From Candidatus Bathyarchaeota archaeon (GTDB lineage: Archaea > Thermoproteota > Bathyarchaeia > Bathyarchaeales > Bathycorpusculaceae): 32,152 bases of DNA. Every line of letters starts with the position of its first letter. Within the stretch, counting starts at the first letter, position 1. The notes below the pieces were generated by a model. It made no database searches. It was not told where the DNA came from and saw only the letters and a list, made by a program, of their open reading frames with translations. This document shows, one piece after another, positions 15,086 through 32,152 of this stretch. The translations under genes were made by a program, and so were the position numbers. The DNA lies in NCBI GenBank assembly GCA_018396705.1, contig JAGTQZ010000008.1, forward strand, positions 1 to 32,152, read 5' to 3'.

Positions 15086-15379
15086 TTGAAGGTTAAAGTT
15101 GAATACATCGGCCATGTTAGAGAGATAATCCACAGCGGTAGAGAAGAAGAGCTCGAAATTAGCGAAGGCGCTTCTCTTGGTGATTTACTTCTTATGCTGG
15201 CGGAAAAATATGGGGAACCCTTTAGAAAAGCCGTTTACGAACCCGGTGGCTCTGACGTTAAGCAAAGTTTCATAATCACGGTGAATGGATACCTGTTAAA
15301 CCAGCTGGATGATGGGGTTAAAACTAAACTCAAGCACGGAGACCATGTCATTTTAATGTCTATTGTAAGCGGCGGTTGA
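15086..15379 (+). CDS. MoaD/ThiS-family sulfur carrier protein
   Basis: A 97-residue ubiquitin-like protein ending in the SGG tail that is activated by adenylation and carries sulfur as thiocarboxylate. The core is typical: the KVKVEYIGHVREI first strand, the EGASLGDLLLMLAEKYGEPF helix, and the IITVNGYLLNQL and LKHGDHVILMSIVSGG strands. In archaea such proteins serve molybdopterin (or tungstopterin) synthesis, and also tRNA thiolation. The two bis-pterin enzymes nearby make a cofactor role attractive but do not prove it. Start: TTG 15086 is nine bases after GAGG; the earlier TTG 15071 would precede that site. Confidence 0.85.
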   Translation: MKVKVEYIGHVREIIHSGREEELEISEGASLGDLLLMLAEKYGEPFRKAVYEPGGSDVKQSFIITVNGYLLNQLDDGVKTKLKHGDHVILMSIVSGG

Positions 15380-16615: not shown

Positions 16616-17593
16616 TCATTTAGATTTGGCGGTATGCTCTGCAATGGTTTTAAAGATGCCCTTTAAGCCTCTTGGGGCTACGAACACTATTATGAGAACT
16701 ATGATTCCTTGCACAATTAGGGATAACCCCATGAACCTCACAAGTTGCAGGTAGAGTATAGTTACAATTATCGCTCCAACAACAGGTCCTTCAATGCTTC
16801 GTAATCCCCCTATAATGGTAGCCATTAACGGGATTAATGTCCAAGCGATTCCGAAGCCACTTTGTGGTTCGATGTAACCTTGGTATAAATAAAAGGTAGC
16901 ACCAGCTAAACCCGTAAAAAAGCAACAAATTACAAAAGAATATAACTTGTACCTGTACGTTGGTATTCCACAGCTTAGCGCAGCGTCCTCGTCATCACAA
17001 ATAGCTATAATGTTCAATCCAAGCTTTGAATTGAGAATAATCTTTATAGAAAAAATTGCTAACAAAGCTATTATTAGTGCAAGGTAATAAATCTCCATTC
17101 TTGAAATATACGTTGCAGCTTTTATAGGGATACCCGCCCCTCCCCAAGTTACAGGTGAAGCCCATGGAGGTCTCCAGGAAGTAAAAAATATTCTGAGCAT
17201 CTCGGTTAAGGCAAGTGTTCCTATAGAGAAATACACACCCTTTATCCTAAAAAGGGGTTTAGATACAACCGCAGCAAATATGGCTGAAACTATACCAGCA
17301 GTTATAATTGCTAAATGGACTTGCCAACCGAAGTCCGTGAGAACACCCAGCATGTAGCCTGCTAAACCTACATAAGCTCCTTGGCCTAATGAAAATAAGC
17401 CACAGTATCCGGCCAAAAAATTCCATAACTCTGCCATAGTCAAAAAGGTTAGGAAAAGTATTAGAAATGTTGTTAAGTATTCCCCCAAACCAATAAATGG
17501 AACCAGAAATAACACAACAATGATAATTAAGAGACATAACAACACATTCCTATTCCTATTAATACTCATAAGAGACTGCTTCACACTGCTCAA
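16616..17593 (-). CDS. livM: Branched-chain amino acid-type ABC transporter permease LivM
   Basis: A 325-residue inner permease with about ten hydrophobic helices. The LivM signature region is clear: NFLAGYCGLFSLGQGAYVGL (about 58-77) and the cytoplasmic coupling segment with SKLGLNIIAICDDEDAALSC (about 188-207), then GGLRSIEGPVVGAII. The start is TTG 17593, overlapping the livH stop by four bases (TTGA), so LivM is coupled to LivH. Liv-type importers also move aromatic acids, urea and short-chain amides in other organisms, so the family does not fix the substrate. It is the last gene of the operon. Confidence 0.93.
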   Translation of the reverse strand: MSSVKQSLMSINRNRNVLLCLLIIIVVLFLVPFIGLGEYLTTFLILFLTFLTMAELWNFLAGYCGLFSLGQGAYVGLAGYMLGVLTDFGWQVHLAIITAGIVSAIFAAVVSKPLFRIKGVYFSIGTLALTEMLRIFFTSWRPPWASPVTWGGAGIPIKAATYISRMEIYYLALIIALLAIFSIKIILNSKLGLNIIAICDDEDAALSCGIPTYRYKLYSFVICCFFTGLAGATFYLYQGYIEPQSGFGIAWTLIPLMATIIGGLRSIEGPVVGAIIVTILYLQLVRFMGLSLIVQGIIVLIIVFVAPRGLKGIFKTIAEHTAKSK

Positions 17594-18450
17594 CGTCCAA
17601 GCACCCCTTTAGGTCTTAACGCTAATAGAATGAAAATAACTAAGTAGCTAGCAAACAGCTGCCATGCCGGATTGAAGAAAGTTGCTGTGAGAACTTGAAC
17701 TAAACCAATTATTATACCGCCTACAAATGTGCCCACCATACTACCGAGACCACCTAGCACCACTACACCAAAGGCTATAACCATGTAACTTTTACCAGTA
17801 GGAGGAGAAAATGGATAAGTAAGTCCGACTAGAATCCCGGCGATTCCAGCAGTCAAAAAGGCTAGACCAAAAGCAAGCGCACGGATATTATCGGTGTTTA
17901 TTCCCATCAGTTGAGCCATTTTCCAATCTTCAGATGAAGCCCTAACGGCCATACCAAGGTAGGTTCTTCTTAAAAATTCCCTTAAAGAGAGTAGCACAAC
18001 AATGGAAATGAAAAAATTAAAAATAAACACAAAAGGCATGCTCATCCATCCTAGCCGATATGACCATAAGGAATAATTAGTTACAAGAGCCCGTTGCATA
18101 GGTGACCATATCAGGAGGTATACGTTTTCAAGAATCGTTGATATGCCTAAAGTTGTTATCACAAACATTTCTATAGAATATTTTAGAGGCCTGCTAAGGC
18201 CGAACCTCTGAAGTAAATATCCTAACGATACAAAGATGGGTGCCAAAATGATTATGCTGACTAGTGGGTCTATACCAAATGATGTAAGCAGATAATAAGC
18301 AAGATAGCTGCCTAGAAGAACAAATTCTCCATGAGCAATATTCATAACATCCATAACGCCCAAAATAAGCGACATACCGATACCTATAACTGCATAGGTG
18401 CCCCCTAGCAAAGCACCATAGATTAAGGATTCGATCAGTTTTGTAATCAT
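17590..18450 (-). CDS. livH: Branched-chain amino acid-type ABC transporter permease LivH
   Basis: A 286-residue permease with about eight helices. Family marks are the N-terminal LLGGTYAVIGIGMSLILGVM (about 14-33), NIAHGEFVLLGSYLAYYL (about 37-54), the coupling loop with YLGMAVRASSEDWKMAQLMG (about 164-183), and VVLGGLGSMVGTFVGGIIIG near residue 240. ATG 18450 has GGGAGT upstream and follows the livF stop by 12 bases. It pairs with LivM to form the channel. Confidence 0.94.
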   Translation of the reverse strand: MITKLIESLIYGALLGGTYAVIGIGMSLILGVMDVMNIAHGEFVLLGSYLAYYLLTSFGIDPLVSIIILAPIFVSLGYLLQRFGLSRPLKYSIEMFVITTLGISTILENVYLLIWSPMQRALVTNYSLWSYRLGWMSMPFVFIFNFFISIVVLLSLREFLRRTYLGMAVRASSEDWKMAQLMGINTDNIRALAFGLAFLTAGIAGILVGLTYPFSPPTGKSYMVIAFGVVVLGGLGSMVGTFVGGIIIGLVQVLTATFFNPAWQLFASYLVIFILLALRPKGVLGR

Positions 18451-18462
18451 TTAACATACTCC

Positions 18463-19173
18463 CTATAAACCAAGGTAGGCTCTTCTAATGTATTCTTCGT
18501 CTTTAAGTTCTTCCGCAGTCCCTATTTTTATGATCTTCCCCGATTCTATTAAACATGCACTATCTGCTTTTTCAAGAGCTTTCCATACGCTTTGCTCTAC
18601 TAAAAGTATTGTTATACCTTGTTCGTTAATCTCTTCACATGCGGCATAAATTTTTTCGGTTATCAAAGGTGACAATCCCAGTGACACTTCGTCAAGTAAA
18701 AGTAGTTTAGGATTGGACATTAATGCCCTGCCTATAAGCAGCATTTTCCGTTCACCTCCACTTAATTTATCTGCCATCTGATTTGACCTCTCCTTCAATC
18801 TAGGGAACAAGTTGAAAACTCTCTCCAACATGTCATTTTTTTCTGACCTTCTAACATATGAACCTATCATGAGATTTTCAAGCACCGTAAAGCGAGTGAA
18901 TATGGAAGCACTACTCTCAGGAACCAATGATAAGCCACGCGCAACCCTTTGATATGTTTTAAGATTATCTATTTTTTCTCCCAGGAATTGTACGTTGCCG
19001 GTATACCGCACAAGTCCAACTATAGCATTTAAAATGCTTGTTTTGCCAGCTCCGTTAGACCCTATTATAGCGAAAATTTCGCCCTCCTTAACATTGAAAG
19101 ACACGTCATGTACAGCTTCTAAACTTCCGTAGTATACGTTTAAATCACTTATGCTTAAAATGGTCTTTGACAC
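18463..19173 (-). CDS. livF: ABC transporter ATP-binding protein LivF
   Basis: A 236-residue ATPase of the Liv importer. Walker A is GSNGAGKTS (about 38-46), the signature is LSGGERKML (about 138-146), Walker B is LLLLDEVSLGL (about 158-168), and a switch His is replaced by Gln in the D-loop-distal segment LLVEQSVWKAL, as is usual for LivF. The GTG start at 19173 lies inside the end of livG (29-base overlap) with GAGGGA nine bases ahead. Confidence 0.94.
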   Translation of the reverse strand: MSKTILSISDLNVYYGSLEAVHDVSFNVKEGEIFAIIGSNGAGKTSILNAIVGLVRYTGNVQFLGEKIDNLKTYQRVARGLSLVPESSASIFTRFTVLENLMIGSYVRRSEKNDMLERVFNLFPRLKERSNQMADKLSGGERKMLLIGRALMSNPKLLLLDEVSLGLSPLITEKIYAACEEINEQGITILLVEQSVWKALEKADSACLIESGKIIKIGTAEELKDEEYIRRAYLGL

Positions 19174-19900
19174 CTTGCGCTTCCCTCTTTCCTAGATAAA
19201 CTTCGATTACTTTTATATCTCTCGAAACTTCCTCAGGCTTACCCTCAGCCAACTTCTCACCTGAGTTCATAACTACGACTCTATCTGCTATTTTCATTAC
19301 AAACGACATTATGTGCTCTACAACGAGTATGGACAAACCCATTTCTTTTAACATCTTAAAAATCGACAACAATTCTGCGATTTCGTTTTCTCTCGACCCT
19401 GCTGCAACCTCGTCCGCCAACAACAGTTTTGGCTTCATACTTAGGGCTCTGCCCAATTCAAGTCTTTTAAGCTCCATTAACGTTAGACTTCCAGCAGACA
19501 TGTTTTCTTTTCCTTTAAGCCCTATGATATCTATAACTCTTTCCACCTCTTTTTTAGCGTGTGCTGCGCTGAAACCGCCACCGTTTATTGCAGCCACCAT
19601 AAGATTTTGAAAAACCGTCAAGTTTTTGAACGGACGAGGTATCTGAAAAGTTCTTGCTATACCCAGCCTACATATAAGATTGGGTGACAAACCATCTATC
19701 CTTTTTCCTTCAAAATATAAATTTCCCGAGGTGGGCTTGAGAAGACCAGATATGAGATTTATAACAGTAGTTTTCCCGGCTCCATTGGGTCCTATTAACC
19801 CCAAAACTTCGTTTTTTCTTAAATCCATTGTTAAATTATTAACAGCCGCCAAACCTCCAAACCTTTTCGTTAAATTGTCACATTGAAGTAAGACACTCAC
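19145..19900 (-). CDS. livG: ABC transporter ATP-binding protein LivG, atypical signature
   Basis: The first gene of the liv operon, about 251 residues. Walker A is GPNGAGKTT, and the LivG insert GIARTFQIPRPFKNLTVFQN is present. The usual LSxGQ signature is replaced by SLTLMELKRLELGRAL and Walker B reads LLLADEVAAG; this altered signature is also known from a subgroup of LivG proteins (from memory) and need not mean inactivity. The GTG at 19900 starts MSVLLQCDNLTKRFGG, which matches family starts; TTG 19915 adds five residues. The gene has its own TATA box and begins the order G-F-H-M. Confidence 0.9.
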   Translation of the reverse strand: MSVLLQCDNLTKRFGGLAAVNNLTMDLRKNEVLGLIGPNGAGKTTVINLISGLLKPTSGNLYFEGKRIDGLSPNLICRLGIARTFQIPRPFKNLTVFQNLMVAAINGGGFSAAHAKKEVERVIDIIGLKGKENMSAGSLTLMELKRLELGRALSMKPKLLLADEVAAGSRENEIAELLSIFKMLKEMGLSILVVEHIMSFVMKIADRVVVMNSGEKLAEGKPEEVSRDIKVIEVYLGKREAQGVKDHFKHK

Positions 19901-19960
19901 TTTTTGCACTCTCAACTAATTTTCCATCGACTAATTTACCTACCTTTTTTAAATTCCACC

Positions 19961-19970
19961 CATTTTATAA
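19961..19970 (-). promoter_or_regulatory. TATA box for liv operon
   Basis: On the minus strand TTATAAAATG lies about 60 bases before GTG 19900, in an AT-rich gap of 157 bases after the molybdoenzyme gene. It indicates that livGFHM can be transcribed separately from the oxidoreductase gene. Confidence 0.5.
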
Positions 19971-20072
19971 CTATAACTAAATTTAAAAGTTTTTACCAAA
20001 AACTGAAGACAGGGGTATAATAGCCGGAAGGGGGGACCCTGTGTCGTTTAATCTCACTGTCATATCGAGGAT

Positions 20073-22550
20073 TTATTCCGCCCGGTAGACTTTACAAAGC
20101 ATTGTCTTGTATGGTGCGCCACCCCATCCAGTTTCACATACATATCCCATTGGAACTAGCTGATTTAATGAAAATTCCCACAACCCGAACAACGATGGTT
20201 CATGTGACGGCAACTCTGGTAGCCACCAGCCATGATCAGCCATGACCATCTGAGGATGAACTGCAGGCGTTAATTTTGCTTTACGTTTACATCTACCATA
20301 ATTGTTTTCAATCCAAACCCAGTCACCATCTTTTATGCCAAGCTTCTCAGCCGTCTTTGGATGGATTTCAACTATCGGATCTGGATGTATTTCTCGAAGC
20401 CATGGTATTTGTCTATGTTCGGAGTGAAAGTACGCTATTATTCTTCGACCAGATCCTAGAATTAGGGGATACTCCCTATAAAGTTCCGGAGTTTCTATAG
20501 GGCTGTGGGGACGCGGTTCCCGATAGTATGGAAATGGATCATAGCCCCATTTTTTTAGACGAGTTGAATATATTTCGGCCAATCCTGAAGGCGTTGCAAA
20601 ACCCGGTTCGCCGTTTCCTCTCAGTAATCCCCTTTCATATCTTTTATATGGTTTAGATCCCCATGGATTATCCTCGGGTGGGAATATTACATGTTTTTTG
20701 CGTAATTCTTCATACGTGAGCCCAGAGAGTCTGAGAAGTTTGTCGTAAAAATCTTCTTCGTCCTTAATTCGTTGAAGCAGAGGATTGAAATTTTTAGCTA
20801 ATGTTAAGCATATTTCCATATCTGATTTGCATTCGCCGAGAGGTTCGATGGCTTTTTCTATGGATGATAGTGGACACCACCAGTTCCAGCCTCCTATCCT
20901 CTCTGCGATGCTGGCGGCGGGCAAAACCATGTCGGCAAGAGCTGCAGCGGTTGGTGTTAGAAAAGCGTCAACAACAACTATGAAATCAACATTCTTTCTT
21001 AGTGCCTCATACCAACCCCTTGGGTCGGCACCCATGCAGGCTAGGATGTTGCTTGTTTGAAGCCAAAGGAATTTAATAGGCCAAGGCTTTCCTGTTTTTA
21101 TAGCTTCATACACATCATCCATTTGTGGAACCGGAACAAGAATGCCCGCAGTGTCGCGTATCAGAGGCCATTTGTCTGCTCCAATACACCTTTCAACCAA
21201 TTTATCGAGAGGCATTGTTTCATGGAAAAATGGAGGAAGATATATAGGCATGAAAAAACTTGGACCATGTGTTGGCCTCGCAATTACATTGCCTCCGGGG
21301 ACATCAATGTTTCCAGTAATAACTGCAAGTTGTGTTATAGATTGGGCAGCGCGGAAACTTTCACCTCCATGATCTATGGCAACTCCCCACTGAATAGCTG
21401 CTGGTCGACTTTTGGCATAGAATCCAGCGGCCTCTACAAGCTTATCCTTCGGCACCCATGTTATTTGTTCAACCTTCTCTGGAGAATATTCAGCTAAGCG
21501 ATCGAGATAAAGTTGCCATACCGGCTTACATTCAACTTCAGACCCATCAATTAATCTAACATTGTACGAGCCTTCTAAACTTAAATCCACATCAAATTTT
21601 TCATAGGAAACTGTGGTTGGATCATATTTCACTATCTCTCTGCTTTTTTTATCCCACGCATAATAGCCAGCTTTTTCGAAGTCTTCCCTCGCTCCTTTTA
21701 TTACATGCCATTCCCTTAGGGGCTCTTTGGTATCCATCCTTATCAAGTGGGGCGCATTCGTCCACTTTTTAACAAAATGCTCGTCATACAATTTTTCACG
21801 GATTATAACGTGGAGTAACCCTAAGGCTAATGCGCTATCTGTGCCAGGTCTTACTTGCAACCAGTATCGGGCGCGAGTTGCCAGCCACGTGCAACGCGGG
21901 TCTATTACTACCAGCTCCGCTCCTTTTTTCGCTAAATCTACAATCCAATGTCCGAAAAAGCCATCTGGACAGACGGCTGGAGGGTTATTTCCCCAAACGA
22001 TTATACACTTAGGTACAACATAGTTTGGGTCGTCATATCTTTTATCCCACCATTGTGCTGCATCCACAACATGCAAATCACCAATAGTCACCCAACTTGC
22101 ACCTATGCGCGGGTAATAACATGAGAAACCGCTTAAACCAAAATCTCCGGCGTTGGGTGTTCCAAGCGACCACGCCAAGAGATGCGCCGGCCAAATATTT
22201 CGACCAGTGCCACGACCTATGCATATGCTTTGTGGGCCATATTTCGCTATTACTTCTCTCAACTTTTCTTCAATTTCTTGAAAAGCTTCCTCCCATGTTA
22301 TCCTTTTCCATCTGCCCTGACCCCTTTCACCAACTCTTTTCATGGGATACAGCAAACGATTAGGATGATAAACATATTGTATCAGCGCCAGAGCACGCGG
22401 GCACAAGCGTCCTTGATTCCAAGGATGCCCTTCGTCACCCTCCACTTTCACTAATTTTCCATCTTTTACGTGAAGAAGCGCACCACAACCACCGTGACAA
22501 CCAGGTCCAGGAGACCACAAAGTTGTCTTTACGACTTTATCTCCATCCAT
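20073..22550 (-). CDS. Molybdopterin (Mo/W-bis-PGD) oxidoreductase, CHGGC type
   Basis: A DMSO-reductase superfamily enzyme of about 825 residues. Counting from the GTG at 22559, the N-terminal site has Cys 21, 25 and 53 (GPGCHGGCG ... GRLCPRA); the first of the four usual cluster cysteines is Gly 18. Later marks are YPMKRVGERG, the metal-ligand position in SGFSCYYPRIGA (about 143-154, a Cys), IVWGNNPPAVCPDG, and the C-terminal cofactor domain LGIKDGDWVWIENNYGR. The C-terminal 150 residues resemble acetylene hydratase and relatives, so a non-redox reaction is possible. No Tat signal, hence cytoplasmic. ATG 22550 follows AGTGAAG by five bases; GTG 22559 has no site. It diverges from the ferredoxin gene, its probable partner. 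Confidence 0.9.
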   Translation of the reverse strand: MDGDKVVKTTLWSPGPGCHGGCGALLHVKDGKLVKVEGDEGHPWNQGRLCPRALALIQYVYHPNRLLYPMKRVGERGQGRWKRITWEEAFQEIEEKLREVIAKYGPQSICIGRGTGRNIWPAHLLAWSLGTPNAGDFGLSGFSCYYPRIGASWVTIGDLHVVDAAQWWDKRYDDPNYVVPKCIIVWGNNPPAVCPDGFFGHWIVDLAKKGAELVVIDPRCTWLATRARYWLQVRPGTDSALALGLLHVIIREKLYDEHFVKKWTNAPHLIRMDTKEPLREWHVIKGAREDFEKAGYYAWDKKSREIVKYDPTTVSYEKFDVDLSLEGSYNVRLIDGSEVECKPVWQLYLDRLAEYSPEKVEQITWVPKDKLVEAAGFYAKSRPAAIQWGVAIDHGGESFRAAQSITQLAVITGNIDVPGGNVIARPTHGPSFFMPIYLPPFFHETMPLDKLVERCIGADKWPLIRDTAGILVPVPQMDDVYEAIKTGKPWPIKFLWLQTSNILACMGADPRGWYEALRKNVDFIVVVDAFLTPTAAALADMVLPAASIAERIGGWNWWCPLSSIEKAIEPLGECKSDMEICLTLAKNFNPLLQRIKDEEDFYDKLLRLSGLTYEELRKKHVIFPPEDNPWGSKPYKRYERGLLRGNGEPGFATPSGLAEIYSTRLKKWGYDPFPYYREPRPHSPIETPELYREYPLILGSGRRIIAYFHSEHRQIPWLREIHPDPIVEIHPKTAEKLGIKDGDWVWIENNYGRCKRKAKLTPAVHPQMVMADHGWWLPELPSHEPSLFGLWEFSLNQLVPMGYVCETGWGGAPYKTMLCKVYRAE

Positions 22551-22559
22551 AAACTTCAC

Positions 22560-22756
22560 TTTGAAGTTATTTTGATGTTCTAGATATATTAGATTTATGT
22601 GTGAATTGGGCTATTCAATTTACGCTATTACAATAATCTTATTGTTAGTTTAAAACTTCACAACTTGTTACAAATTTATAAGTTACCCACAGTAGTAACA
22701 CAAGCAAATTTTATATACAGAGATCATATAACCAAATGTTTAACCCGGTGATAGTT
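22560..22756. promoter_or_regulatory. Divergent promoter region of molybdoenzyme and ferredoxin genes
   Basis: Plus strand: AAATTTTATATA (22706-22717) about 45 bases before ATG 22757. Minus strand: TAATATATCTAG (about 22582-22593) about 35 bases before ATG 22550; a second candidate CTTATAAATTT lies near 22673-22683. The shared region would allow common control of both subunits. Confidence 0.5.
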
Positions 22757-23089
22757 ATGTCTCTTTATGGTCTCCTGATAGATTATCAATGGTGTTCTGG
22801 CTGCCACTCTTGTGAAGTAGCATGTAAACAAGAACATAACCTACCAGTTGGCGTATGGGGAATTAAAGTATATGAATTAGTACAGGAATATAATGGCAAA
22901 ATCTTTATTGATTATTTCCCATTTCCCACAGATCTTTGCAATTTATGTGCGCATAGAACAAAAGAAGGGAAAAAACCTGCATGCGTCCAACATTGTATGG
23001 CTCGGTGCATGTATTATGGAAAGATTGAGGAGCTAATAAAAATAGCGAATGAGAAGTCAAAAATGGTTCTTTGGGTTCCACGCCAGTAA
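22757..23089 (+). CDS. Small 4Fe-4S dicluster ferredoxin, molybdoenzyme partner type
   Basis: A 110-residue electron-transfer protein with nine cysteines: 13, 16, 19 and 23 (CSGCHSCEVAC) and 61, 64, 76, 80 and 84 (CNLC ... CVQHCMARC), enough for two cubane clusters. The fold is that of a shortened DmsB/NrfC-type subunit with only two of the four usual clusters. Start: GGTGAT then five bases to ATG 22757, giving MSLYGLLIDYQWCSGC, a usual beginning; ATG 22736 is in frame but lies only 25 bases after the TATA box and would leave almost no leader. It is the only plus-strand gene in the right part and stands head to head with the CHGGC molybdoenzyme, which it probably serves. Confidence 0.9.
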   Translation: MSLYGLLIDYQWCSGCHSCEVACKQEHNLPVGVWGIKVYELVQEYNGKIFIDYFPFPTDLCNLCAHRTKEGKKPACVQHCMARCMYYGKIEELIKIANEKSKMVLWVPRQ

Positions 23090-23103
23090 CGTATGTTTGG
23101 AAA

Positions 23104-24321
23104 TTAAAGGATTGCATGCCACAAGAGTTCAGCACAGTTGACAACTTTTATTAAACTCTCATCCTCAGCTACAGTTTTGAGACTATATTCGCACCATGGG
23201 CAAGCTGTAACTATTATGAAGCTCCCGGTACTTTCAGCCTCTTTAATTCTTTCTTTCGCAGCAAACTTCATAAGATCAGGAAAAGCCGCCATAACACCCC
23301 CATTTGCACCGCAACACCATGTTCGCCCTTGATTTCTGGGTAATTCCTTTATCTCCGCACCTTTAATGCTTTTAAGGATTTTACGCGGCTCTTGGGTTAT
23401 TCTTGTGAACCTTGAGAGGTTGCAAGGATCGCTATAGGTGATTGTGACGTTTAGCACTTTTTCTGGTTTAAGTCGGCCTTCCTCAATGAGCGCATTAAGA
23501 AACTGTGTGAAGTGCTGCACTTCAAAGTTGAGGTTTCCAATTTTGGGGTAAAGTTTTTTAAATGAATAGTAGCAATGAGGACAAGGTGTAACCAACGTTT
23601 CTATTCCTAGTCCATTCAACATCTCTAAATTCTCTTCAGCTAGGTTTTGGAACAGACCTTTTTCACCTAATTGTAATTGTAATACACCACAACAATTTTC
23701 ATTTTCCCCAAGGAAACCAAAGTCTACTTTTGCCTTATTCAGAAGTTTCACAAATATTTTTGTAGTTTCTCTAACGGTAGGTTCTAGAGAGTACATGCAC
23801 CCGGGATAAAAAAGCACTTTAGACATCTCTTTAGTTAGATTCTTAATTTTGAAGTCTAAACCTTCTGTCCATTTTAACCGTTCTTTTCTAGGAACAAAAG
23901 GATTACCAAACTTAACAGTGTTTTCGAGAAGTGCCTTATGTTCTGGAAAAACTATGCCTCTCTCGACAAGCTGCTCTCTGACGAATTGAATCACATCAGT
24001 GATAGTTGTCCAGCCCTTTTCTATATATTCCTCGCCGAAAAACTTTTTGCCGAATATTGCGCAATTTTCTTGGCACGCTCCACACATTGTGCATTTATAA
24101 AACACTTCCGCAAGATTCTTGTCATAGCTTATAGATCCGAAAACGATGGCTCTTGCTAGTGATATTTTTCCGGAGCCAGAGTAGGCATAAAAACCATATC
24201 TCTCATAGGATGGACATACGGGAAGAAATTCTGGAAGATCTGACCATATGCAGCTGCGACATCTAATGCAAGCCATAACATCAACGCCTATGTGATCCCT
24301 TATTTCTTTCAAACTGACCAA
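23104..24321 (-). CDS. GlcF/HdrD-like iron-sulfur protein with two CCG domains
   Basis: A 405-residue cytoplasmic electron carrier. Two ferredoxin-type sites come first: C18xxC21xxC24 with C36P, and KCTMCGACQENC near residue 75-86. Then two cysteine-rich CCG domains: FYPGCMYS ... ENCCGVLQ ... PCPHC and SDPCNLSR ... WCCGANGG ... ACPWC. This order is shared by glycolate oxidase GlcF, lactate-oxidation subunits and heterodisulfide reductase HdrD. TTG 24321 is seven bases after GGAGGT. The gene follows the flavoprotein gene by 15 bases; the two very likely form one dehydrogenase complex. Acceptor (quinone, disulfide or ferredoxin) is not evident. Confidence 0.92.
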   Translation of the reverse strand: MVSLKEIRDHIGVDVMACIRCRSCIWSDLPEFLPVCPSYERYGFYAYSGSGKISLARAIVFGSISYDKNLAEVFYKCTMCGACQENCAIFGKKFFGEEYIEKGWTTITDVIQFVREQLVERGIVFPEHKALLENTVKFGNPFVPRKERLKWTEGLDFKIKNLTKEMSKVLFYPGCMYSLEPTVRETTKIFVKLLNKAKVDFGFLGENENCCGVLQLQLGEKGLFQNLAEENLEMLNGLGIETLVTPCPHCYYSFKKLYPKIGNLNFEVQHFTQFLNALIEEGRLKPEKVLNVTITYSDPCNLSRFTRITQEPRKILKSIKGAEIKELPRNQGRTWCCGANGGVMAAFPDLMKFAAKERIKEAESTGSFIIVTACPWCEYSLKTVAEDESLIKVVNCAELLWHAIL

Positions 24322-24336
24322 CTCGCCTACCTCCTG

Positions 24337-25941
24337 CTATTCAGGCCACATGTGTGGGGACATAATATTGTTTGGATCTAACGCTTTCTTAATTCTTTTT
24401 AACACCTCGTAGTAGCCACCCGTCTGTTGTAGGATTGCTTTAGCTTCCTCTCTTGTTGCTGGTGGTTTATGACCAAAAAAACCATACTTCCTTAACAATT
24501 CAGCTGAATATGTCGCATACTTCCTTAAATCCTCCCTAAGCTCATTGAACGTCCCGCCAAACCTAGAGATATAAAATCTGTGAAACATCATCCTACCCTG
24601 ATCAAAGGGCTGAATATAAGCCGAGATCAGAGACATCCCTTCTTTACCTTCGAAAAGGTCAACAAGGTGCTTCTCCATCTGCACTAAATTTCTTGGTGGA
24701 ACAAGACCTATATAAGCAGCGGTAAAAAATGGAGCCATGAGGCCGAGAGCCATTGCTGGTGAGCGAGGTGGTTCATGTTTCACATGCCTCTCTACACACA
24801 TTTCATAAAAGTATGGAAAAACACGCTTAAAATCCTCATGATTATAAACAGTTCCCCCGTTCTCTCGAGCGAGTCTATCACAAACTTTAATCTGCGCCTC
24901 AACAACTTCTTTGAATCCTTCAAAAGTTGTGACTGTAAGCCAAAGTGGCACTCCTTCAGGAGGATCGTAGAAATTTCGAGGACTCCATGTATCGTATGGA
25001 ATCAACTCTCCGTCAAGGACGTTTCCGTACAGCATTTTTCCCCATCGTTCCATCTGTAAAAGCGCTACCCAATGCCAGATAACTACATGTTCGGCAGCAC
25101 CGCGAAGACACACCTGCCTACAGAATTTCACGGCAGACTCCGTTGAATTAAAACCAGTTATGTGAAAGTTGGCTACCTCCCCTTGCGGATAAATTCTCAA
25201 CGCGAATTTAGTGACAACGCCTAACATACCATTAGCATTCAACCAAAGGCCGTGTATATCTGGAAAGTTGAAGTATTGATGAGCCCAGCTTCCATGTTCA
25301 GCGACAGCTCCACCTGTTCTAACTAACGTTCCGTCCGGCAACACCACTTCAAAACCTAAAATATCGTCAAAACCTCCACTTCCTCTATGTCCCTGAACTT
25401 GTGTAGTTGCAGGACCGAAAACACTCAGCTGAGGATTATAACTGCCTTTTGAATGCCAATACTTGAGCGGTTGCAATGCTTTATAAAGCTGACCATTCGT
25501 GACACCTGGTTCAAGAACGACGTATCCTTCATCAGTATTTATCTCTATTATCCTGTTCATTCCAGACATGTCGAGGACTATGCCACGTGGAATACAAAAG
25601 GTAGAAGAAGCTGAAAGAAGACACCCACCAGCCACAGGGGTTACTGGTATAATGTGTTTATTAGCTATCCTAAGCGCGGCTTGAACATGTTCTACCTCTT
25701 TTGGTCGAATAACTATCTCTGGAACAAGAAACGGCACCGCACCGTAACTTGCGCACACCGCTGGATTGTCTGACACATTTTCATCACCAATGAGTCTTTT
25801 AAGTTCTCCAACAACCTCCCTTTTTAACTGCTCAGACATCCTATTTTTAAACTCTGGAAACATTGCCAAAATATCCGGATACATTGCAGCAAAAGGAGTG
25901 TCCTTGACAGATTCTTCTAGCATAGAGGGGTCAAAAACCAT
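24337..25941 (-). CDS. FAD-linked oxidase, PCMH/VAO-type flavoprotein
   Basis: A flavoprotein of about 534 residues. The FAD-binding PCMH domain spans about 60-260: VRPKEVEHVQ-like entry (VIRPKEVEHVQAALRIANKH), VTPVAGGCLLS at the pyrophosphate, VVLEPGVTNGQLYKAL, GHRGSGGFDDILGFEVVLPD and NANGMLGVVTKFAL. The C-terminal substrate domain ends with LKRIKKALDPNNIMSPHMWP. The family covers glycolate and lactate dehydrogenases as well as 4-cresol dehydrogenase and vanillyl-alcohol oxidase; the long C-terminal domain with many aromatic residues resembles the latter group, but the covalent FAD residue cannot be assigned by eye. ATG 25941 lies two bases after the upstream stop, behind AGGAGGT; TTG 25953 would overlap it. 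Confidence 0.92.
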   Translation of the reverse strand: MVFDPSMLEESVKDTPFAAMYPDILAMFPEFKNRMSEQLKREVVGELKRLIGDENVSDNPAVCASYGAVPFLVPEIVIRPKEVEHVQAALRIANKHIIPVTPVAGGCLLSASSTFCIPRGIVLDMSGMNRIIEINTDEGYVVLEPGVTNGQLYKALQPLKYWHSKGSYNPQLSVFGPATTQVQGHRGSGGFDDILGFEVVLPDGTLVRTGGAVAEHGSWAHQYFNFPDIHGLWLNANGMLGVVTKFALRIYPQGEVANFHITGFNSTESAVKFCRQVCLRGAAEHVVIWHWVALLQMERWGKMLYGNVLDGELIPYDTWSPRNFYDPPEGVPLWLTVTTFEGFKEVVEAQIKVCDRLARENGGTVYNHEDFKRVFPYFYEMCVERHVKHEPPRSPAMALGLMAPFFTAAYIGLVPPRNLVQMEKHLVDLFEGKEGMSLISAYIQPFDQGRMMFHRFYISRFGGTFNELREDLRKYATYSAELLRKYGFFGHKPPATREEAKAILQQTGGYYEVLKRIKKALDPNNIMSPHMWPE

Positions 25942-25943
25942 TT

Positions 25944-26315
25944 TTAGGTGCAACCTCCTTCCATTGTCAAACCCAACTTTCTCAGCATAAATGATGCTCT
26001 ATATGCTACTAATGCGGAAGTGGGAGCAACCACCTTCACTTGAATGTCTCCCTTTAAATATAGATTCCGCATAATATTTCTAATGTTTTTAAATTCTTTT
26101 TCGCAAGCCAGAGAATTGATAGCATCCTTATTTATTTTAAATACAACTAAGGGTTTATCATTTTCTGAAGGTTGCAGAAAATTAACCCCAGCATGGTTTC
26201 TAGCTACTTTGTAAATGTCACCATTTAGGACTAAGTAAATCACAGCTCCCTCGCGCAATTCTAGAAAAGCTTCTTTAAATAGTCCATATACGAGGTTCTC
26301 AAAAGTCCCAATCAT
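25944..26315 (-). CDS. Small protein, possibly SCP2-like
   Basis: A 123-residue protein directly before the flavoprotein gene. The pattern resembles the SCP-2 lipid-carrier fold: a helix FENLVYGLFKEAFLEL, strands around GAVIYLVLNGDIYKVA, the PLVVFKINKDAINSLA strand-helix, and the MRNLYLKGDIQVKVVAPTSA end followed by a helix. The match is by eye and weak. ATG 26315 follows GGTGT by four bases. Its place in the operon suggests that it helps bind or present a hydrophobic substrate to the flavoenzyme; this is a hypothesis. Confidence 0.6.
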   Translation of the reverse strand: MIGTFENLVYGLFKEAFLELREGAVIYLVLNGDIYKVARNHAGVNFLQPSENDKPLVVFKINKDAINSLACEKEFKNIRNIMRNLYLKGDIQVKVVAPTSALVAYRASFMLRKLGLTMEGGCT

Positions 26316-26393
26316 TTAAACACCTTAATTGAGATTTTTTAATAACACTTATATACTATAAAGACCTTTCGATTGGATACGTTTAAATTTGAT

Positions 26394-26678
26394 CTAACTA
26401 GTTTTTAATTGTTCTTCCATCCATTTGAGCTTTTGATAAAGCCTTCTTTCTTGGTTTTTAAAAGAGTGTATCTTCACGTTTAAATATTCCTCTCGCCCTG
26501 TCAGTTCTTTAGCTCTCTCCCTACAGACTTTTTCGCTTATTTTTTTGATTTCCATAAGTTCTGCTTCGAGTCTTCGCCTTTTCGCCAAAACGTTTAAAAA
26601 ACAAACTTTAAGTCTATGAAGCATAGCCATTTTTAATAAGATATCCTCAATCTGCTCGTTCCCAGTCATATCCGCCAA
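26394..26678 (-). CDS. Small coiled-coil hypothetical protein
   Basis: A 94-residue, highly charged and almost entirely helical protein. Heptad-like patterns run from about residue 30 (LAKRRRLEAELMEIKKISEK) to the end (KNQERRLYQKLKWMEEQLKT). Two cysteines at about 27 and 52 have no motif. The start is TTG 26678 or, nine bases later, ATG 26669; neither has a strong binding site. It lies between the flavoprotein operon and the first binding-protein gene. It could be a small regulator or scaffold. Not recognised. Confidence 0.55.
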   Translation of the reverse strand: MADMTGNEQIEDILLKMAMLHRLKVCFLNVLAKRRRLEAELMEIKKISEKVCRERAKELTGREEYLNVKIHSFKNQERRLYQKLKWMEEQLKTS

Positions 26679-26881
26679 CCTAGACTAATGTCAATTATCA
26701 ATAAAAACTCATTCTATTCAACTTTTCAACATTTCCAATGCAGCTCAGCGACGCTTCAGGAACATAGTTGTAGACCGAACACAGTATAAAATCATTTTAA
26801 CGGGAACCAACCTTCCGAATGGATTACAAGGTCCATATTCAAAAAGATGTGAGGGGGGATTTTTGATTAAAGTCTTAAGGT

Positions 26882-28213
26882 TTAGGGAAGCGGGAATAAT
26901 GGTTCACGTGTAGGTTGTAGATCCGGATTTGGCGAGTAAACAATCTCCATCTTCAGCTTTCCATGCTCATCTACAAACCATTGACCTACATAAAGCACTT
27001 GAGGACAAAAGTGGAAATCTTTTACGAACTTTACTCTTCCAAACGCCATTGCAACAACGTCAATGTTAGATAAGGCATCCAGTATTTTTTCAGGATCCAG
27101 ACTTCCAGCCATTTCTATTGCTCTACATGCCACTTCAGCCCACGAATACGCGCTTAAAGCATCTGACCAAGATCTCCCAGTTTCCTCTGTCCAATCCTCA
27201 GCCAGCTGCATGTTGGTTCTCCCGCCGTAGTAACTTTTGTATGGTATATATGGGTTCCATACGTTAAATGGATCAACCAAACCGACGGCAAGGTTTGGAT
27301 CACCTATCGCTGCTACGTCCTCATAGTTTTTGAGGGCCCTTCCATCCAGAACCATTTTCGGCTTCCATCCTAAACTTGTGGCTTGTCTCCACATAGTTGC
27401 AAAATCGCTTCCAATGGATAGTCCCCAAAGAACTTCGGCTTGAGCATCTTTCCATTCGCGGATTATTGCTGTAAAGTCCATAGTTCCAGGAGCATATTGA
27501 CCAAGACGTTTTTCAACACCAACAACAGTATACCCGGCACCTTGCAAGATTCCAGTTGCAAGATCATACCAAGGTCTGCCATCAGCATCATCCGGTGCAA
27601 ACAACGCTACTTTACCATTGATTTCTTCACGGAACAAATTAGTGAAGTCCAAATAATTTCCAATGGCAGAATACCCAGGCTTACCAGCCCTAAAGTCTCC
27701 TTCCGGAACTGGTGTAACAAGTACCGGGCCTATAGCCCATGCATACTCATAGGGTCCGGAATTCCACCATGGCTCCATAACCCCGTCCACAAGCGCAGGC
27801 ACCTTAAATTTGTCCACCGCGCCTGAAACTGGAATATGAATTATTGGTGGACCTGGATTAGTAAGTATTATGTGGACTTTGTCTTGGAGTATTAGTTGTT
27901 CGACTAGGGCTGTTGCTTTTGAGGGGTCGCTGGAGTCGTCGTATTGTATTAGTTTGACTTGGAGTTTTCGGCCGCCGACATTTAAACCACCAAGGTTATT
28001 CACATCCTCAACACATTTCTTAATACCAAAGGCAGCTGGTTGACCGAATGCGGCCATGAATCCTGTCATTGAAACTAGATTTCCAATTCGGACCTCCTCA
28101 ACTCCTCCGGGAGTTGTGTAAAGATATACTAAGACGCCGACGATAGCAGCGACGATTATTACGATCGCCACCAAAAGCACCTTCAAACGGAAAGCAACGC
28201 CTTTTCTATTCAT
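26882..28213 (-). CDS. LivK-type ABC substrate-binding protein, membrane-anchored
   Basis: A 443-residue periplasmic-type binding protein (type I fold) that would deliver the ligand to LivHM. Residues about 10-33 form one hydrophobic helix (VLLVAIVIIVAAIVGVLVYL) with no lipobox cysteine, so it is probably tethered by an uncleaved helix. Fold marks: VRIGNLVSMTGFMAAFGQPA, LQVKLIQYDDSSDPSKAT, KVALFAPDDADGRPWY, and MDFTAIIREWKDAQAEVLWG. The ligand pocket is rich in Trp and Tyr (EPWWNSGPYEYAWAIG), compatible with a planar or aromatic ligand. ATG 28213 is favoured over GTG 28222 by the AGTGGT site. It shares identical DNA patches with the paralogue at the window edge. Confidence 0.92.
   Translation of the reverse strand: MNRKGVAFRLKVLLVAIVIIVAAIVGVLVYLYTTPGGVEEVRIGNLVSMTGFMAAFGQPAAFGIKKCVEDVNNLGGLNVGGRKLQVKLIQYDDSSDPSKATALVEQLILQDKVHIILTNPGPPIIHIPVSGAVDKFKVPALVDGVMEPWWNSGPYEYAWAIGPVLVTPVPEGDFRAGKPGYSAIGNYLDFTNLFREEINGKVALFAPDDADGRPWYDLATGILQGAGYTVVGVEKRLGQYAPGTMDFTAIIREWKDAQAEVLWGLSIGSDFATMWRQATSLGWKPKMVLDGRALKNYEDVAAIGDPNLAVGLVDPFNVWNPYIPYKSYYGGRTNMQLAEDWTEETGRSWSDALSAYSWAEVACRAIEMAGSLDPEKILDALSNIDVVAMAFGRVKFVKDFHFCPQVLYVGQWFVDEHGKLKMEIVYSPNPDLQPTREPLFPLP
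27423..27497. repeat. Identity patch with second livK copy (75 bases, copy 1)
   Basis: Identical over its length to 31580-31654. It codes for the segment around MDFTAIIREWKDAQAEVLWG. Flanking sequence diverges, including at silent positions. Confidence 0.85.
27866..27992. repeat. Identity patch with second livK copy (127 bases, copy 1)
   Basis: Identical to 32026-32152, where the window ends, so the true patch may be longer. It codes for the segment LQVKLIQYDDSSDPSKATAL and its neighbours. Confidence 0.9.
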
Positions 28214-28246
28214 ATTTACCACTGAACCGAAGTTAGTGGCATATAT

Positions 28247-28257
28247 CTTTATATAAG
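28247..28257 (-). promoter_or_regulatory. TATA box for first livK gene
   Basis: CTTATATAAAG on the minus strand about 40 bases before ATG 28213. The gap to the next gene upstream (about 200 bases) therefore holds an independent promoter. Confidence 0.55.
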
Positions 28258-28424
28258 GTTTACGTTACTAGGATTTTCGGAGCTTTTCCTTTAGCGTATT
28301 TGCTGCTGGGCTATTTATACTGCTAGACTAAGTAGCTAATTTAACTTTCACGAAAGCCTCCTGACGCAGGCCAGCGGTTAGGTCGTAAAAATTTTGTTAA
28401 ATATCTTTAGTATCTTGTTTATGT

Positions 28425-30944
28425 TTAGTCTATGTTTGCTTTTTCGATTTGAACTAGAAATGCGCTTACCACCATGCCAGGAACATTTTTTGAAGTTGTC
28501 TTCGATGGAGTTATAAGGTTTATGGCACCTCCTCTATCTATTTTGTATTCTACGGACAGTAAGTCAACCCCTGCCCCATGATCCATGCTAACCACTCCAG
28601 GCATTATACGCTCTGTTATGTAGGCAGCACCTAAAACGGTGCCTCTTTCATTGTAGACTTTGACTATGTCTCCATGTTTTATTCCGCGTTTTGCGGCGTC
28701 GCTTGGATGGATCCAGACTGGTTCATATAGATAGCCGTCTGGCCCTTTTATTTTGCATGTAGGTATCTCCCTAAGCCATACTATATCGTCATTTTGAGCG
28801 TGAACCCTCCATCTTGGATGGTTGCTAACCATTAGGAGCGGATATCTCTTAGCCCTTGCATGCAGCAGGCTTTCCTGATGAGTTTCGCCATAAGGAATGT
28901 AATGAGGTACTGGAGGTCTTTCGGTGTCTTCTGGAAAGTTTTCAGCAAGGCCTGTAGAATAGAACTCAAGTTTTCCGGTGGGTGTTTCCAGTCGGTTGTT
29001 GAGAGGATCCTCGTAGAAGGAACCTAAGCCTGGCTTAACATTGAGTTTCTTCTTCATCTTTTCCCATTCTTCAGGCGGTGGTGCAGGGAGGAAAAATATT
29101 TTTTTCCTTTTGAATTCCTCCCAGCTCATATATTTGGGACATACAGACTCCTCGTAAATTTTTTTGGCGAACTCTTCAAACTCTGGAAACTTCTCTAAGT
29201 AGGAATTCAACCCAATTTTTTGTGCTATTAAACGCATTATTTCATAGTCGGTCTTTGACTCGCCAATGGGCTCGATACACTTATCAACCCACCATGCAAT
29301 TGTGTACTCTGGAGGATCAACTTTAACAGCCATATCTTCTGTCTCAAAAACTGTGCATGCTGGGAGAATTATATCTGCGAATTTACAGTCATTTTCAAAC
29401 CATGGATGCACTGCCACTATGAATTCTATTTTTGGGCTTCTTAGGGCTTCGATCATTTTATAGCCTTCGTTCCAGCATGTGGTCCAGCAGCCGTTTTCAT
29501 TGAATATCATATGGATTTCAGGGTATCCCTCAAAGGGATATGTATACTTAACAAACTGGTCTTCCATTAATGCCATAATAGCACCAGTACCATACCAGCT
29601 TACTGGTGGATTGAGAATAGCGTCTGGCAACAGTGTCTTGGGAATGAAAGGTGGATTGTAAGGTATTAACCCCCAAAGGTTACCCGGGTTTATCGGCATA
29701 CCCTTTGCAGCTATAGCTTCTATCGCTCCCGAATAAATTTCTATATTCGTGGGAACACCCGGTAAGACACGTCCAAACGTCCATGTTGGAAGAAGTCTCA
29801 CCATGTGAACCCCTGGTTTCCCAAGTCCTTGCATGGACAACAGTATAGCCTCTAATCTTGCAGGCTCTGTTGAGTATGGTCCCCTTATTTTTGGTCCCCC
29901 GAATACTATGCCTATTGATGTTCTTTTAGACGCCCACTCTCTTGCTAAGGCTTTTATTGTTCTAGTGGGGACTCCCGTTATCTTTGATGCCCATTCTGGG
30001 GTTTTTGAAATCCCGTCTTCATGGCCGAGGACGTATTTTTGAAATTCTTCGAATCCATGAACGTGAGTTTTGATATATTCCTTGTCATATGTTTCCTCTT
30101 CTATCCACATGTAGGCTATTGCTAAGTACAGAGCTGCGTCGGTGTTGGGTCTTATTGGTATCCATTTGTCAGCCCACTTAACGGTCGTATAATTGGCATC
30201 TGGAGCTATGGCTATACATTTTATACCGGCCTCTTTAATCCACCACATAACTATTGAACCGCTTTGCCCACAAAACCCCCAAGAGGTAGTTTCAGGATCA
30301 GCCCCCGTGAGTATCATAAGTTCCGTATTTTCCAAAACGTCCTCGTAGATAACATCTTGAAAGTGCAATCCGCATTTAAGTCCCTCACCACCCCATACAT
30401 GCTTTGCCCCCCAGTAATACCCTTCCCAACTGTCTGGATTTCGAATAATATGTGTGCAGCCACCTAAATGCTCAAAAAGCTCATGCGCATAGAAATGTAA
30501 TGTCTGGAAGCTTGATTGTCCATGACCGTCAGCTAAAACAGCTATCGCGTGGGGACCGTACTTTTCTTTTATCCTATTAATTTCACTAGCTATGATCTCT
30601 AACGCTTCGTCCCAGCTTATTCTGACATACCCACTTTTACCTCTATTTTGAGTGTTTCGCTCACCATTTGGGTCAAAGTCAACTCGTTTTAACGGATACC
30701 TAACCCGATTCGGTGAGTATACACGTAACTTAAAGGCAAGTTCAAACGGTGCTTGCAAGGTCTTTCCAGGTTTTGTGAAAGTCTTGCCACGCGCCTTAAT
30801 CGTATAAGAAAATCCGTCAAAGAACATAGGCTTTAGTCTTATTATTTTACCATTCCTGATGTGAACTTCCGTCGGAACGTACGCGTCTGTAAAACCAAGC
30901 AGACTTGTAGGCACATAACTTTTCCTTATATCACTTCCATTCAT
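28425..30944 (-). CDS. Molybdopterin enzyme without cluster domain, pyrogallol-phloroglucinol transhydroxylase-like
   Basis: An 839-residue DMSO-reductase superfamily protein that lacks the N-terminal cysteines for an iron-sulfur cluster; it begins with an unusual domain (HIRNGKIIRLKPMFFDGFSY) and reaches the family core at VRYPLKRVDFDPNGERN (81-97) and ISWDEALEII. Two features recall the large subunit of pyrogallol transhydroxylase: the absent cluster, and D171-S172-W173 with H141 thirty residues earlier, the same spacing as its active-site His 144 and Asp 174-Ser 175-Trp 176 (from memory). Ser 172 would bind the metal. Later marks are GADPETTSWG, NENGCWTTCW and the C-terminal ARAKRYPLLMVSNHPRWRVH. 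ATG 30944 follows GGTGA by four bases. It lies between two binding-protein genes. Subfamily is likely, substrate uncertain. Confidence 0.85.
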   Translation of the reverse strand: MNGSDIRKSYVPTSLLGFTDAYVPTEVHIRNGKIIRLKPMFFDGFSYTIKARGKTFTKPGKTLQAPFELAFKLRVYSPNRVRYPLKRVDFDPNGERNTQNRGKSGYVRISWDEALEIIASEINRIKEKYGPHAIAVLADGHGQSSFQTLHFYAHELFEHLGGCTHIIRNPDSWEGYYWGAKHVWGGEGLKCGLHFQDVIYEDVLENTELMILTGADPETTSWGFCGQSGSIVMWWIKEAGIKCIAIAPDANYTTVKWADKWIPIRPNTDAALYLAIAYMWIEEETYDKEYIKTHVHGFEEFQKYVLGHEDGISKTPEWASKITGVPTRTIKALAREWASKRTSIGIVFGGPKIRGPYSTEPARLEAILLSMQGLGKPGVHMVRLLPTWTFGRVLPGVPTNIEIYSGAIEAIAAKGMPINPGNLWGLIPYNPPFIPKTLLPDAILNPPVSWYGTGAIMALMEDQFVKYTYPFEGYPEIHMIFNENGCWTTCWNEGYKMIEALRSPKIEFIVAVHPWFENDCKFADIILPACTVFETEDMAVKVDPPEYTIAWWVDKCIEPIGESKTDYEIMRLIAQKIGLNSYLEKFPEFEEFAKKIYEESVCPKYMSWEEFKRKKIFFLPAPPPEEWEKMKKKLNVKPGLGSFYEDPLNNRLETPTGKLEFYSTGLAENFPEDTERPPVPHYIPYGETHQESLLHARAKRYPLLMVSNHPRWRVHAQNDDIVWLREIPTCKIKGPDGYLYEPVWIHPSDAAKRGIKHGDIVKVYNERGTVLGAAYITERIMPGVVSMDHGAGVDLLSVEYKIDRGGAINLITPSKTTSKNVPGMVVSAFLVQIEKANID

Positions 30945-31041
30945 ATTTTCACCTTGAAGCTATAGTTTGTTTTATCCATCTTTTTTATGTTTGAAATAAA
31001 AATGAAGATTGTTAATATGTGAATTCAATTATTAACTTTTG

Positions 31042-32152
31042 CTAGGGCAGCGGGAAGATTATTTCGTGAGTAGGAGTTATAGACGGATCTGCACACCAGA
31101 CAATTTCTGCTTCCCATACCCAAGGCTTATTTGTCTTCACCCATTGAACCACATGAAACAGAGATGGACTACTATGAAACTCTGCAATGATTTTTACTCT
31201 TCCAGCTATTGACATAAAATCAACTTGAGGAAATGCTTGATTTATCTTTTCTGGATCTAAACTTCCTGCAATTTCTACCACTCTACATGCCACTTCAGCC
31301 CAGTGATATGTTGTTAACATCTCCGTCCAAGCTTTTCCTGTTTCATTTGTCCATTCCTCAGCCAGACTTGCGCATGTTCTGCCACCGTAATAACTTTTGT
31401 ATGGTAGGCTTGGGTGCCAAGCTTGAAATGGGTCGGCCAATCCAATGGCAAGGTCCCCGCCTATGGCCGCTACATCATCATAGTTTTTAAGAGCCCTTCC
31501 ATCCATGGCCATTTTCGGCTTCCATCCTAAACTTGTGGCTTGTCTCCACATGGTTGCGAAATCTGCACCTACAGACATACCCCAAAGAACTTCGGCTTGA
31601 GCATCTTTCCATTCGCGGATTATTGCTGTAAAGTCCATAGTTCCAGGAGCATATAAACCAAGACTTTTTTCAACACCAACAACAGTATACCCAGCCTCTT
31701 CAGCAACTTTTGAAGCTAACTCGTAAAATGTACGTCCATCCGCATCATCCAACGCGAAAAGGGCGATTTTCTTGTTAATCTTGTCACGGAATAGTTCAGT
31801 AAAGTCTAGGAAATTAAAGAGAGCGTTGTACCCACGCTTACCAGCTCTGAAATCACCTTCTGGAATAGGTGTGGCAAACCAAGGCAGGTTACCGGTCCAA
31901 CAGTATTTATACGGCCCTGCACCCCACCAAGCCTCTAGAAACCCATCGGCGAGACAGGGGATTTTATGATGCTCGGCGGCCTGGCTAACTGGTATGCTGA
32001 TTACCGGTGGACCTGGAGGTACTATTATTATGTGGACTTTGTCTTGGAGTATTAGTTGTTCGACTAGGGCTGTTGCTTTTGAGGGGTCGCTGGAGTCGTC
32101 GTATTGTATTAGTTTGACTTGGAGTTTTCGGCCGCCGACATTTAAACCACCA
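31042..32152 (-). CDS. Second LivK-type substrate-binding protein, N-terminus beyond the window
   Basis: The frame is open from the stop at 31042 to the window end, giving about 369 residues and lacking the N-terminal anchor and first strand. It is paralogous to the protein at 26882 throughout: DSSDPSKATALVEQLILQDK, PIPEGDFRAGKRGYNALFNF, LFALDDADGRTFYELASKVA and the PLP end. In the ligand region it differs (LEAWWGAGPYKYCWTGNLPW against EPWWNSGPYEYAWAIGPVLV), so ligand preference may differ. It stands upstream of the transhydroxylase-like gene, 97 bases away and in the same direction. An ATG at 31752 is internal, not the true start. Confidence 0.92.
   Translation of the reverse strand, partial: GGLNVGGRKLQVKLIQYDDSSDPSKATALVEQLILQDKVHIIIVPPGPPVISIPVSQAAEHHKIPCLADGFLEAWWGAGPYKYCWTGNLPWFATPIPEGDFRAGKRGYNALFNFLDFTELFRDKINKKIALFALDDADGRTFYELASKVAEEAGYTVVGVEKSLGLYAPGTMDFTAIIREWKDAQAEVLWGMSVGADFATMWRQATSLGWKPKMAMDGRALKNYDDVAAIGGDLAIGLADPFQAWHPSLPYKSYYGGRTCASLAEEWTNETGKAWTEMLTTYHWAEVACRVVEIAGSLDPEKINQAFPQVDFMSIAGRVKIIAEFHSSPSLFHVVQWVKTNKPWVWEAEIVWCADPSITPTHEIIFPLP
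31580..31654. repeat. Identity patch with first livK copy (75 bases, copy 2)
   Basis: Partner of 27423-27497, same orientation. Confidence 0.85.
32026..32152. repeat. Identity patch with first livK copy (127 bases, copy 2)
   Basis: Partner of 27866-27992, same orientation, still identical where the window ends. Confidence 0.9.

Follow-up and report, generated by a model that had tools for sequence, protein, structure and literature searches.

A Liv-type importer linked to two molybdo/tungstoenzymes in a Bathyarchaeon: a candidate uptake-and-remodelling module for hydroxylated aromatics

Results

Gene content of the cluster

The DNA analysed here, a stretch of 32,152 nucleotides referred to below as the window, is the entire contig JAGTQZ010000008.1 (C8) of assembly GCA_018396705.1, the genome (G000) of an archaeon of the class Bathyarchaeia (1.71 Mb, 9 contigs, 97% complete). 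From position 16616 onwards it carries a cluster that a preliminary description, made from the letters alone, had read as a Liv importer with two binding proteins, two molybdoenzymes, a flavoprotein and a CCG iron-sulfur protein in an archaeon, mostly on one strand. All the named genes are present, and the host is archaeal as had been proposed. Read along the minus strand, the order is a truncated substrate-binding protein (SBP2), a molybdoenzyme (MoB), a second binding protein (SBP1), two small open reading frames, the FAD protein, the CCG protein, another molybdo/tungstoenzyme (MoA) and LivG-F-H-M; the only gene of the set on the plus strand encodes a small ferredoxin and lies between CCG and MoA. 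The ferredoxin and the two small reading frames had been absent from the preliminary description.

The two permeases, two ATPases and type I SBP that make up an ABC importer of the Liv/HAAT kind are all encoded. The permeases are of the LivM type (16616-17593; PF02653, E 4e-34) and the LivH type (17590-18450; PF02653, E 1e-35), and the ATPases of the LivF type (18463-19173; PF00005) and the LivG type (19145-19915; PF00005 and PF12399). The window Liv proteins score under the curated cut-offs of all NCBIfam Liv models, with best scores of 216 bits for LivF (cut-off 441) and 209 bits for LivG. SBP1 (26882-28222; PF13458, E 6e-42) is membrane-anchored and has a 66% identical homologue in another genome of the host's order (G150). 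SBP2 (31042-32151; PF13458, E 5e-32) is about 66% identical to SBP1; its N-terminus is cut off by the contig end, since the window is the whole of C8.

MoB belongs to a sister clade of pyrogallol-phloroglucinol transhydroxylase

MoB (28425-30944, minus strand) carries PF00384, PF01568 and the AhtL-like domain 1 PF21423. Its best match in the PDB is 4v4c, the large subunit of pyrogallol-phloroglucinol transhydroxylase (PT), with E 4e-149 and 501 bits, the next match reaching 255 bits. We aligned 97 sequences and checked the residues in PT numbering; the active-site roles of these residues are reportedly those of the 2004 structure paper. The molybdenum ligand Ser175 is retained together with His144, Asp174 and Trp176, and these are invariant in 95 relatives, but Thr, Leu and Ile stand at Tyr152, Arg153 and Tyr404, and there is a gap at Tyr560. 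MoB thus resembles the Pelobacter acidigallici enzyme (PgtL/AhtL) in its fold family, its Ser ligand, the Asp/Trp pair, the His144 equivalent and the lack of N-terminal Fe4S4 cysteines, and differs from it in the four replaced or absent residues, in being 38% identical to it, and in having no adjacent beta subunit.

In the tree, PT and 12 relatives bearing Tyr404 form one clade with support 1.0. MoB falls in the sister group, where its neighbours come from other archaea (Nezhaarchaeota, Nitrososphaeria, Methanomethylicota and Bathyarchaeota). A gene for an Fe-S beta subunit beside MoB was not found in the window; a homologue of that subunit is present in 59 of 80 MoB-related loci. The absence of Tyr404, Tyr560 and the beta subunit rules out that MoB is a true PT. 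The earlier likening of one molybdoenzyme to PT therefore stands as far as the nearest structure goes, and fails for want of the beta subunit and of the tyrosines diagnostic of PT. Judged by its predicted ligand and its place in the tree, MoB is a Ser-ligand MopB enzyme of the sister clade of PT. Ser ligation is described for PgtL and for the resorcinol hydroxylase RhL (PMC10100899).

MoA and its ferredoxin partner

MoA (20073-22559, minus strand; PF04879, PF00384 and PF01568) is a MopB-family catalytic subunit whose best PDB match is acetylene hydratase, 2e7z (E 4e-79, 269 bits; next match 189 bits), which agrees with its earlier placement in the acetylene-hydratase group. An alignment of the ligand columns shows that the Mo/W-ligand cysteine (equivalent to Cys141) is retained in MoA and in 28 of 29 relatives. 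Like acetylene hydratase, MoA has the equivalents of C12, C16 and C46, three of the four Fe4S4 cysteines; unlike it, MoA has lost the first cysteine, carries His in place of Asp13, and is accompanied by a ferredoxin of 117 amino acids. The four cysteines plus Asp13 that mark acetylene hydratase are thus incomplete. A motif of the W-[ST]-...-GC-H type is common to MoA relatives of Moorella, Sporomusa, Raoultibacter and one Anaerolineales genome.

The partner (22736-23089, plus strand; PF13247, E 1e-6) is a small ferredoxin-like electron-transfer subunit encoded divergently from MoA. Homologues 52-61% identical to it adjoin MoA relatives in loci L042, L089, L193 and L202, and we assign it to MoA because of the cases in L042, L193 and L202. 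In the last two, from Actinomycetota and Moorella stamsii, the MoA relatives and their 56-61% identical ferredoxins lie near URO-D, B12-binding or DUF1638 genes.

The acetylene hydratase side of the family also holds the gut catechol dehydroxylases (Cdh), for which acetylene hydratase is the closest relative (PMC7028382). We liken MoA to Cdh through this published affinity, the sequences compared on the Cdh side being Raoultibacter relatives. A dehydroxylation activity of MoA is a reasonable prediction on this footing. Genes for corrinoid methyltransferases adjoin MoA relatives in Moorella and Actinomycetota, and would fit catechols arising from O-demethylation; the host itself has no URO-D family gene.

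The FAD/CCG pair

The CCG (HdrD/GlpC-like) iron-sulfur protein (23104-24321, minus strand) has two CCG domains (PF02754, E 8e-33) and PF13183, and is adjoined by an FAD-linked oxidoreductase of the VAO/PCMH and GlcD superfamily (24337-25953, minus strand; PF01565, E 8e-28). An FAD_binding_4 protein paired with a CCG protein is the arrangement of GlcD/GlcF-like or D-lactate dehydrogenases, and the substrate-specific models stay under their cut-offs. PDB matches of the FAD protein are confined to its N-terminal FAD domain and include enzymes acting on cresol, lactate and glycolate alike; 4-cresol dehydrogenase is matched no better than D-lactate dehydrogenase. The AlphaFold model, built from a shallow alignment, reaches a pLDDT of 55. 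A 4-cresol dehydrogenase/PCMH flavoprotein has a cytochrome c subunit; among the window genes scanned no cytochrome gene was found, the partner being the CCG protein. The family that had been proposed for the flavoprotein, one including 4-cresol dehydrogenase, is therefore right at the level of the superfamily, and its cresol flavour is not borne out.

The pair recurs (CCG 74%, FAD 80% identical) together with the Liv genes (LivM 73%, LivH 77%, LivF 75%, LivG 69%) on contig C22 of G080, which belongs to a different family within the host's order; that contig also has an AFOR gene. Overlapping the FAD gene is a small protein without family match (25944-26315, minus strand), which shows a marginal likeness to a 124-aa reading frame preceding a second FAD gene on the same G080 contig (18% over 84 aa, E 0.001). 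The 94-codon reading frame at 26394-26678 (minus strand) has neither a family nor a homologue among the loci compared, and may not be a gene.

Sister clusters with true transhydroxylases

Elsewhere the host genome carries three true PT genes, whose products share 57-60% identity with the Pelobacter enzyme and have 8 of 8 checked active-site residues, and two of them adjoin Liv importers. On contig C4, at about 68-79 kb (L042), LivFGMH and an SBP accompany a true PT (57%), a PT-beta-like ferredoxin, a MoA relative (55%) and a small ferredoxin (61%); the PT beta subunit (7741-8604 of L042) lies between the PT gene and the MoA relative and has a carboxypeptidase-regulatory-like domain. On contig C5, at 18-43 kb, LivMHFG, an SBP, an amidohydrolase, an AFOR gene and the second true PT (59%) share a region with another AFOR gene, an iron-type alcohol dehydrogenase, a CoA-transferase, acetoacetate-CoA ligase, an SDR, a cupin, BKACE and a 3-hydroxyacyl-CoA dehydrogenase (HAD). 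The third PT (60%) lies beside a gene of the Cyclase family at about 174 kb of C4, and at about 90-98 kb of the same contig (L043) the closest MoB paralogue of the genome (about 60%) has its beta subunit, an SDR and a second cyclase as neighbours.

The phloroglucinol pathway shown in Clostridium scatologenes (PGR-DPGC-TfD-TAL; PMC10470551) draws on the SDR, cyclase, HAD and BKACE families. Host homologues of these families stand beside PT, Liv or the MoB paralogue, all of them outside the window; the transporter reported for the bacterial cluster belongs to a major family and is not of the Liv type (PMC10470551). We assigned the homologues by family and neighbourhood; those above an NCBIfam cut-off are acetoacetate-CoA ligase, the sole pathway gene whose model names a specific reaction, and one generic SDR subfamily. 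The preliminary description had suggested looking for benzoyl-CoA or phloroglucinol genes outside the window: homologues of the phloroglucinol type are present on other contigs, and no gene of the HGD-D family (class I benzoyl-CoA reductase) was found in the genome. One of the nine AFOR proteins was compared with the PDB and matched aldehyde oxidoreductase (373 bits) above the benzoyl-CoA reductase BamB (268 bits).

Recurrence and distribution

Of the seven Liv permease pairs in the host genome, four have a MopB molybdoenzyme no more than 12 kb away (P about 0.007 under simulated random placement), and five have either a MopB or an AFOR enzyme within that distance (P again about 0.007). Because the window is itself one of these four and assumed lengths were used for three contigs, the statistic is supportive only; with this reservation, the linkage is more than chance. 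For a genome of 1.7 Mb, about 13 catalytic proteins of the MopB family and nine tungstoenzymes of the AFOR family are an unusual load.

The phloroglucinol cassette is found, whole or in part, in several of the 80 MoB-related loci, which come from many phyla (L071, L091, L098, L099 and L129). One of them, L099, is an Actinomycetota contig with the order BKACE-SDR-HAD-cyclase-PT-PTbeta-MoB-MoBbeta-SBP-LivGFHM on one strand (its PT gene being PT-like). In G150, locus L083 repeats the arrangement of L043 with cyclase and SDR 74-80% identical.

Bathyarchaeia genomes in which PT and Liv genes are neighbours are G000 (C5 and C4), G080 (C32) and G150 (C29). Compared with those on C5 of the host, the PTs of G080 and G150 are 67-87% identical and the adjacent Liv proteins 34-51%. 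As different Liv systems stand beside similar PTs, PT and Liv appear to have become linked on more than one occasion. A PT query matched 4 of 257 Bathyarchaeia genomes, namely the host and three genomes of one genus in another family, and no match was found in the three other genomes of the host's own genus; this patchy distribution makes horizontal transfer of PT and MoB likely. The complete combination of the window was found in no other genome. The linkage that had been expected in related archaea is thus conserved for subsets, and patchily, while the full set was not met with elsewhere.

Other genes of the window

A tyrosine recombinase gene (12260-13591) directly adjoins tRNA-His, and the stretch from 7 to 13.5 kb has a raised G+C (0.465) and few recognisable genes, which suggests an integrated element; a copy of tRNA-His as attachment site was sought and not found, a point against this reading. 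Fragments of related integrases lie near Liv genes on contig C40 of G080 and near MoB in a Nezhaarchaeota locus (L062). Close to the Liv cluster, a ThiS/MoaD-like small protein (15071-15379) is possibly linked to the supply of pterin cofactor for the Mo/W enzymes; a protein similar in sequence (15391-15678 of L146) lies between LivG and the SBP on contig C5. An M24 creatinase/prolidase-like gene (15456-16535) adjoins LivM, and one of similar look is found in a Liv cluster with E1/E2 dehydrogenase genes at 112-124 kb of contig C2. We do not favour a binning error, since the cluster agrees with other contigs of the genome in its G+C and its tetranucleotide profile.

Discussion

We read the cluster, with moderate confidence, as an uptake-and-remodelling module for hydroxylated aromatics in an anaerobic Bathyarchaeon. 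This reading starts from what can be observed directly, that is, gene content, protein families, metal-ligand residues, sister clusters and recurrent linkage. From these we infer the cytoplasmic site of the chemistry, the directions and order of the reactions, and the exact substrate, the candidates being phenols, most likely derived from plants, for example di- or trihydroxybenzenes and their carboxylates. SBP1 and SBP2 would capture the phenolic compound and LivHM-FG would import it, as family and neighbours suggest. In the cytoplasm, MoB may move or add a ring hydroxyl in the manner of a transhydroxylase or hydroxylase, and MoA with the small ferredoxin may remove or add an oxygen of the ring or side chain, as catechol dehydroxylase or acetylene hydratase would. 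The FAD/CCG pair could oxidise an alcohol or hydroxy-acid group and pass the electrons through the Fe-S centres of the CCG protein. The products would then feed a phloroglucinol-type ring-opening route encoded on contigs C4 and C5.

A phenolic substrate is supported because the sister clusters contain true PT and phloroglucinol-pathway homologues and because L099 carries the whole set on one strand. The suggestion of such a substrate is thereby strengthened. That of a single unit for import and oxidation is supported as well, the parts forming a plausible import-and-oxidoreduction unit. We also count in favour that the fold matches of SBP1 include solved Liv-type SBPs with p-coumarate, caffeate or hydroxybenzoate as ligand. 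Binding proteins of the Liv-type importers for aromatic acids in Rhodopseudomonas palustris (CouPSTU and relatives) are among the matches; these importers share the architecture, and the window proteins differ in being only 15-20% identical.

Several observations weigh against the aromatic module. The SBP1 model comes from a shallow alignment (pLDDT 65), and the fold search with this poor model matched amino-acid, urea and aromatic binders alike, so that the ligand classes were not separated. MoB has lost Tyr404 and Tyr560 and stands in the window without a beta subunit. There is no ring-opening gene within the window, and neither the HGD-D nor the URO-D methyltransferase family was found in the host genome. 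The full combination was met with in this genome only. Finally, the nearest Liv/SBP sets, apart from the FAD-linked one, adjoin E1/E2 genes resembling those of 2-oxoacid dehydrogenases.

These E1/E2 genes also speak for the best surviving alternative, in which the imported compound is a 2-hydroxy or 2-oxo acid of aliphatic or aryl type (e.g., phenyllactate or mandelate) and is oxidised by the FAD/CCG pair in the way of GlcDF or D-lactate dehydrogenase, the molybdoenzymes having separate jobs. The resemblance of the pair to the GlcD/GlcF and lactate dehydrogenase types agrees with it, as does contig C22 of G080, which carries the pair along with Liv sets and an AFOR gene and has no MopB gene. 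We nevertheless hold it to be unlikely, given that in several lineages PT and phloroglucinol genes accompany relatives of MoA, MoB and Liv. It is rather improbable, too, that MoA and MoB are respiratory reductases acting on phenolic or other organic acceptors, as proposed for the expanded enzymes of Eggerthellaceae, and serve electron disposal and not carbon gain. The 86 MoA matches in the genome of Raoultibacter (about 3.9 Mb) and the position of the catechol dehydroxylases on the acetylene hydratase side (PMC7028382) would suit such a role, but no Tat/Sec signal or membrane anchor subunit is apparent in sequence for either enzyme, and ring-opening genes accompany the sister clusters. An ordinary branched-chain amino acid importer lying by chance next to unrelated redox genes would account for the Liv family of the permeases and ATPases, and is very hard to believe in view of the scores under all curated Liv cut-offs, SBPs that show no clear amino-acid motif by eye, and the non-random linkage.

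Returning to the aromatic module, we tentatively suggest a wider hypothesis, in which some hot-spring Bathyarchaeia would have obtained a modular polyphenol degradation from bacteria. Liv importers, PT, MoB as a hydroxylase of the PT sister clade and MoA as a dehydroxylase-like enzyme would funnel diverse phenols to phloroglucinol ring opening, with MoB representing a new ring-hydroxyl-processing activity and the window its dedicated module.

Some of the pieces are already known: PT, the phloroglucinol pathway, Liv-type aromatic importers, and the PT predicted from genomes in Chloroflexi (PMC3971608). A literature search of partial coverage, which is no proof of novelty, found no description of PT or of a phloroglucinol-type pathway in Bathyarchaeia. 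According to a 2025 review (PMC12694404), canonical genes of aromatic catabolism are missing in the lignin-degrading Ca. B. ligniniphilus, and its route of ring cleavage is unknown. The genome described here, of a lineage that may not be close to that organism, offers a testable route from Liv import through a PT-type hydroxyl rearrangement to a phloroglucinol-type ring opening. It also puts names to two large enzyme clades, of the MoB and MoA types, which are common to acetogens, Chloroflexi and Eggerthellaceae, and whose substrates can be assayed directly.

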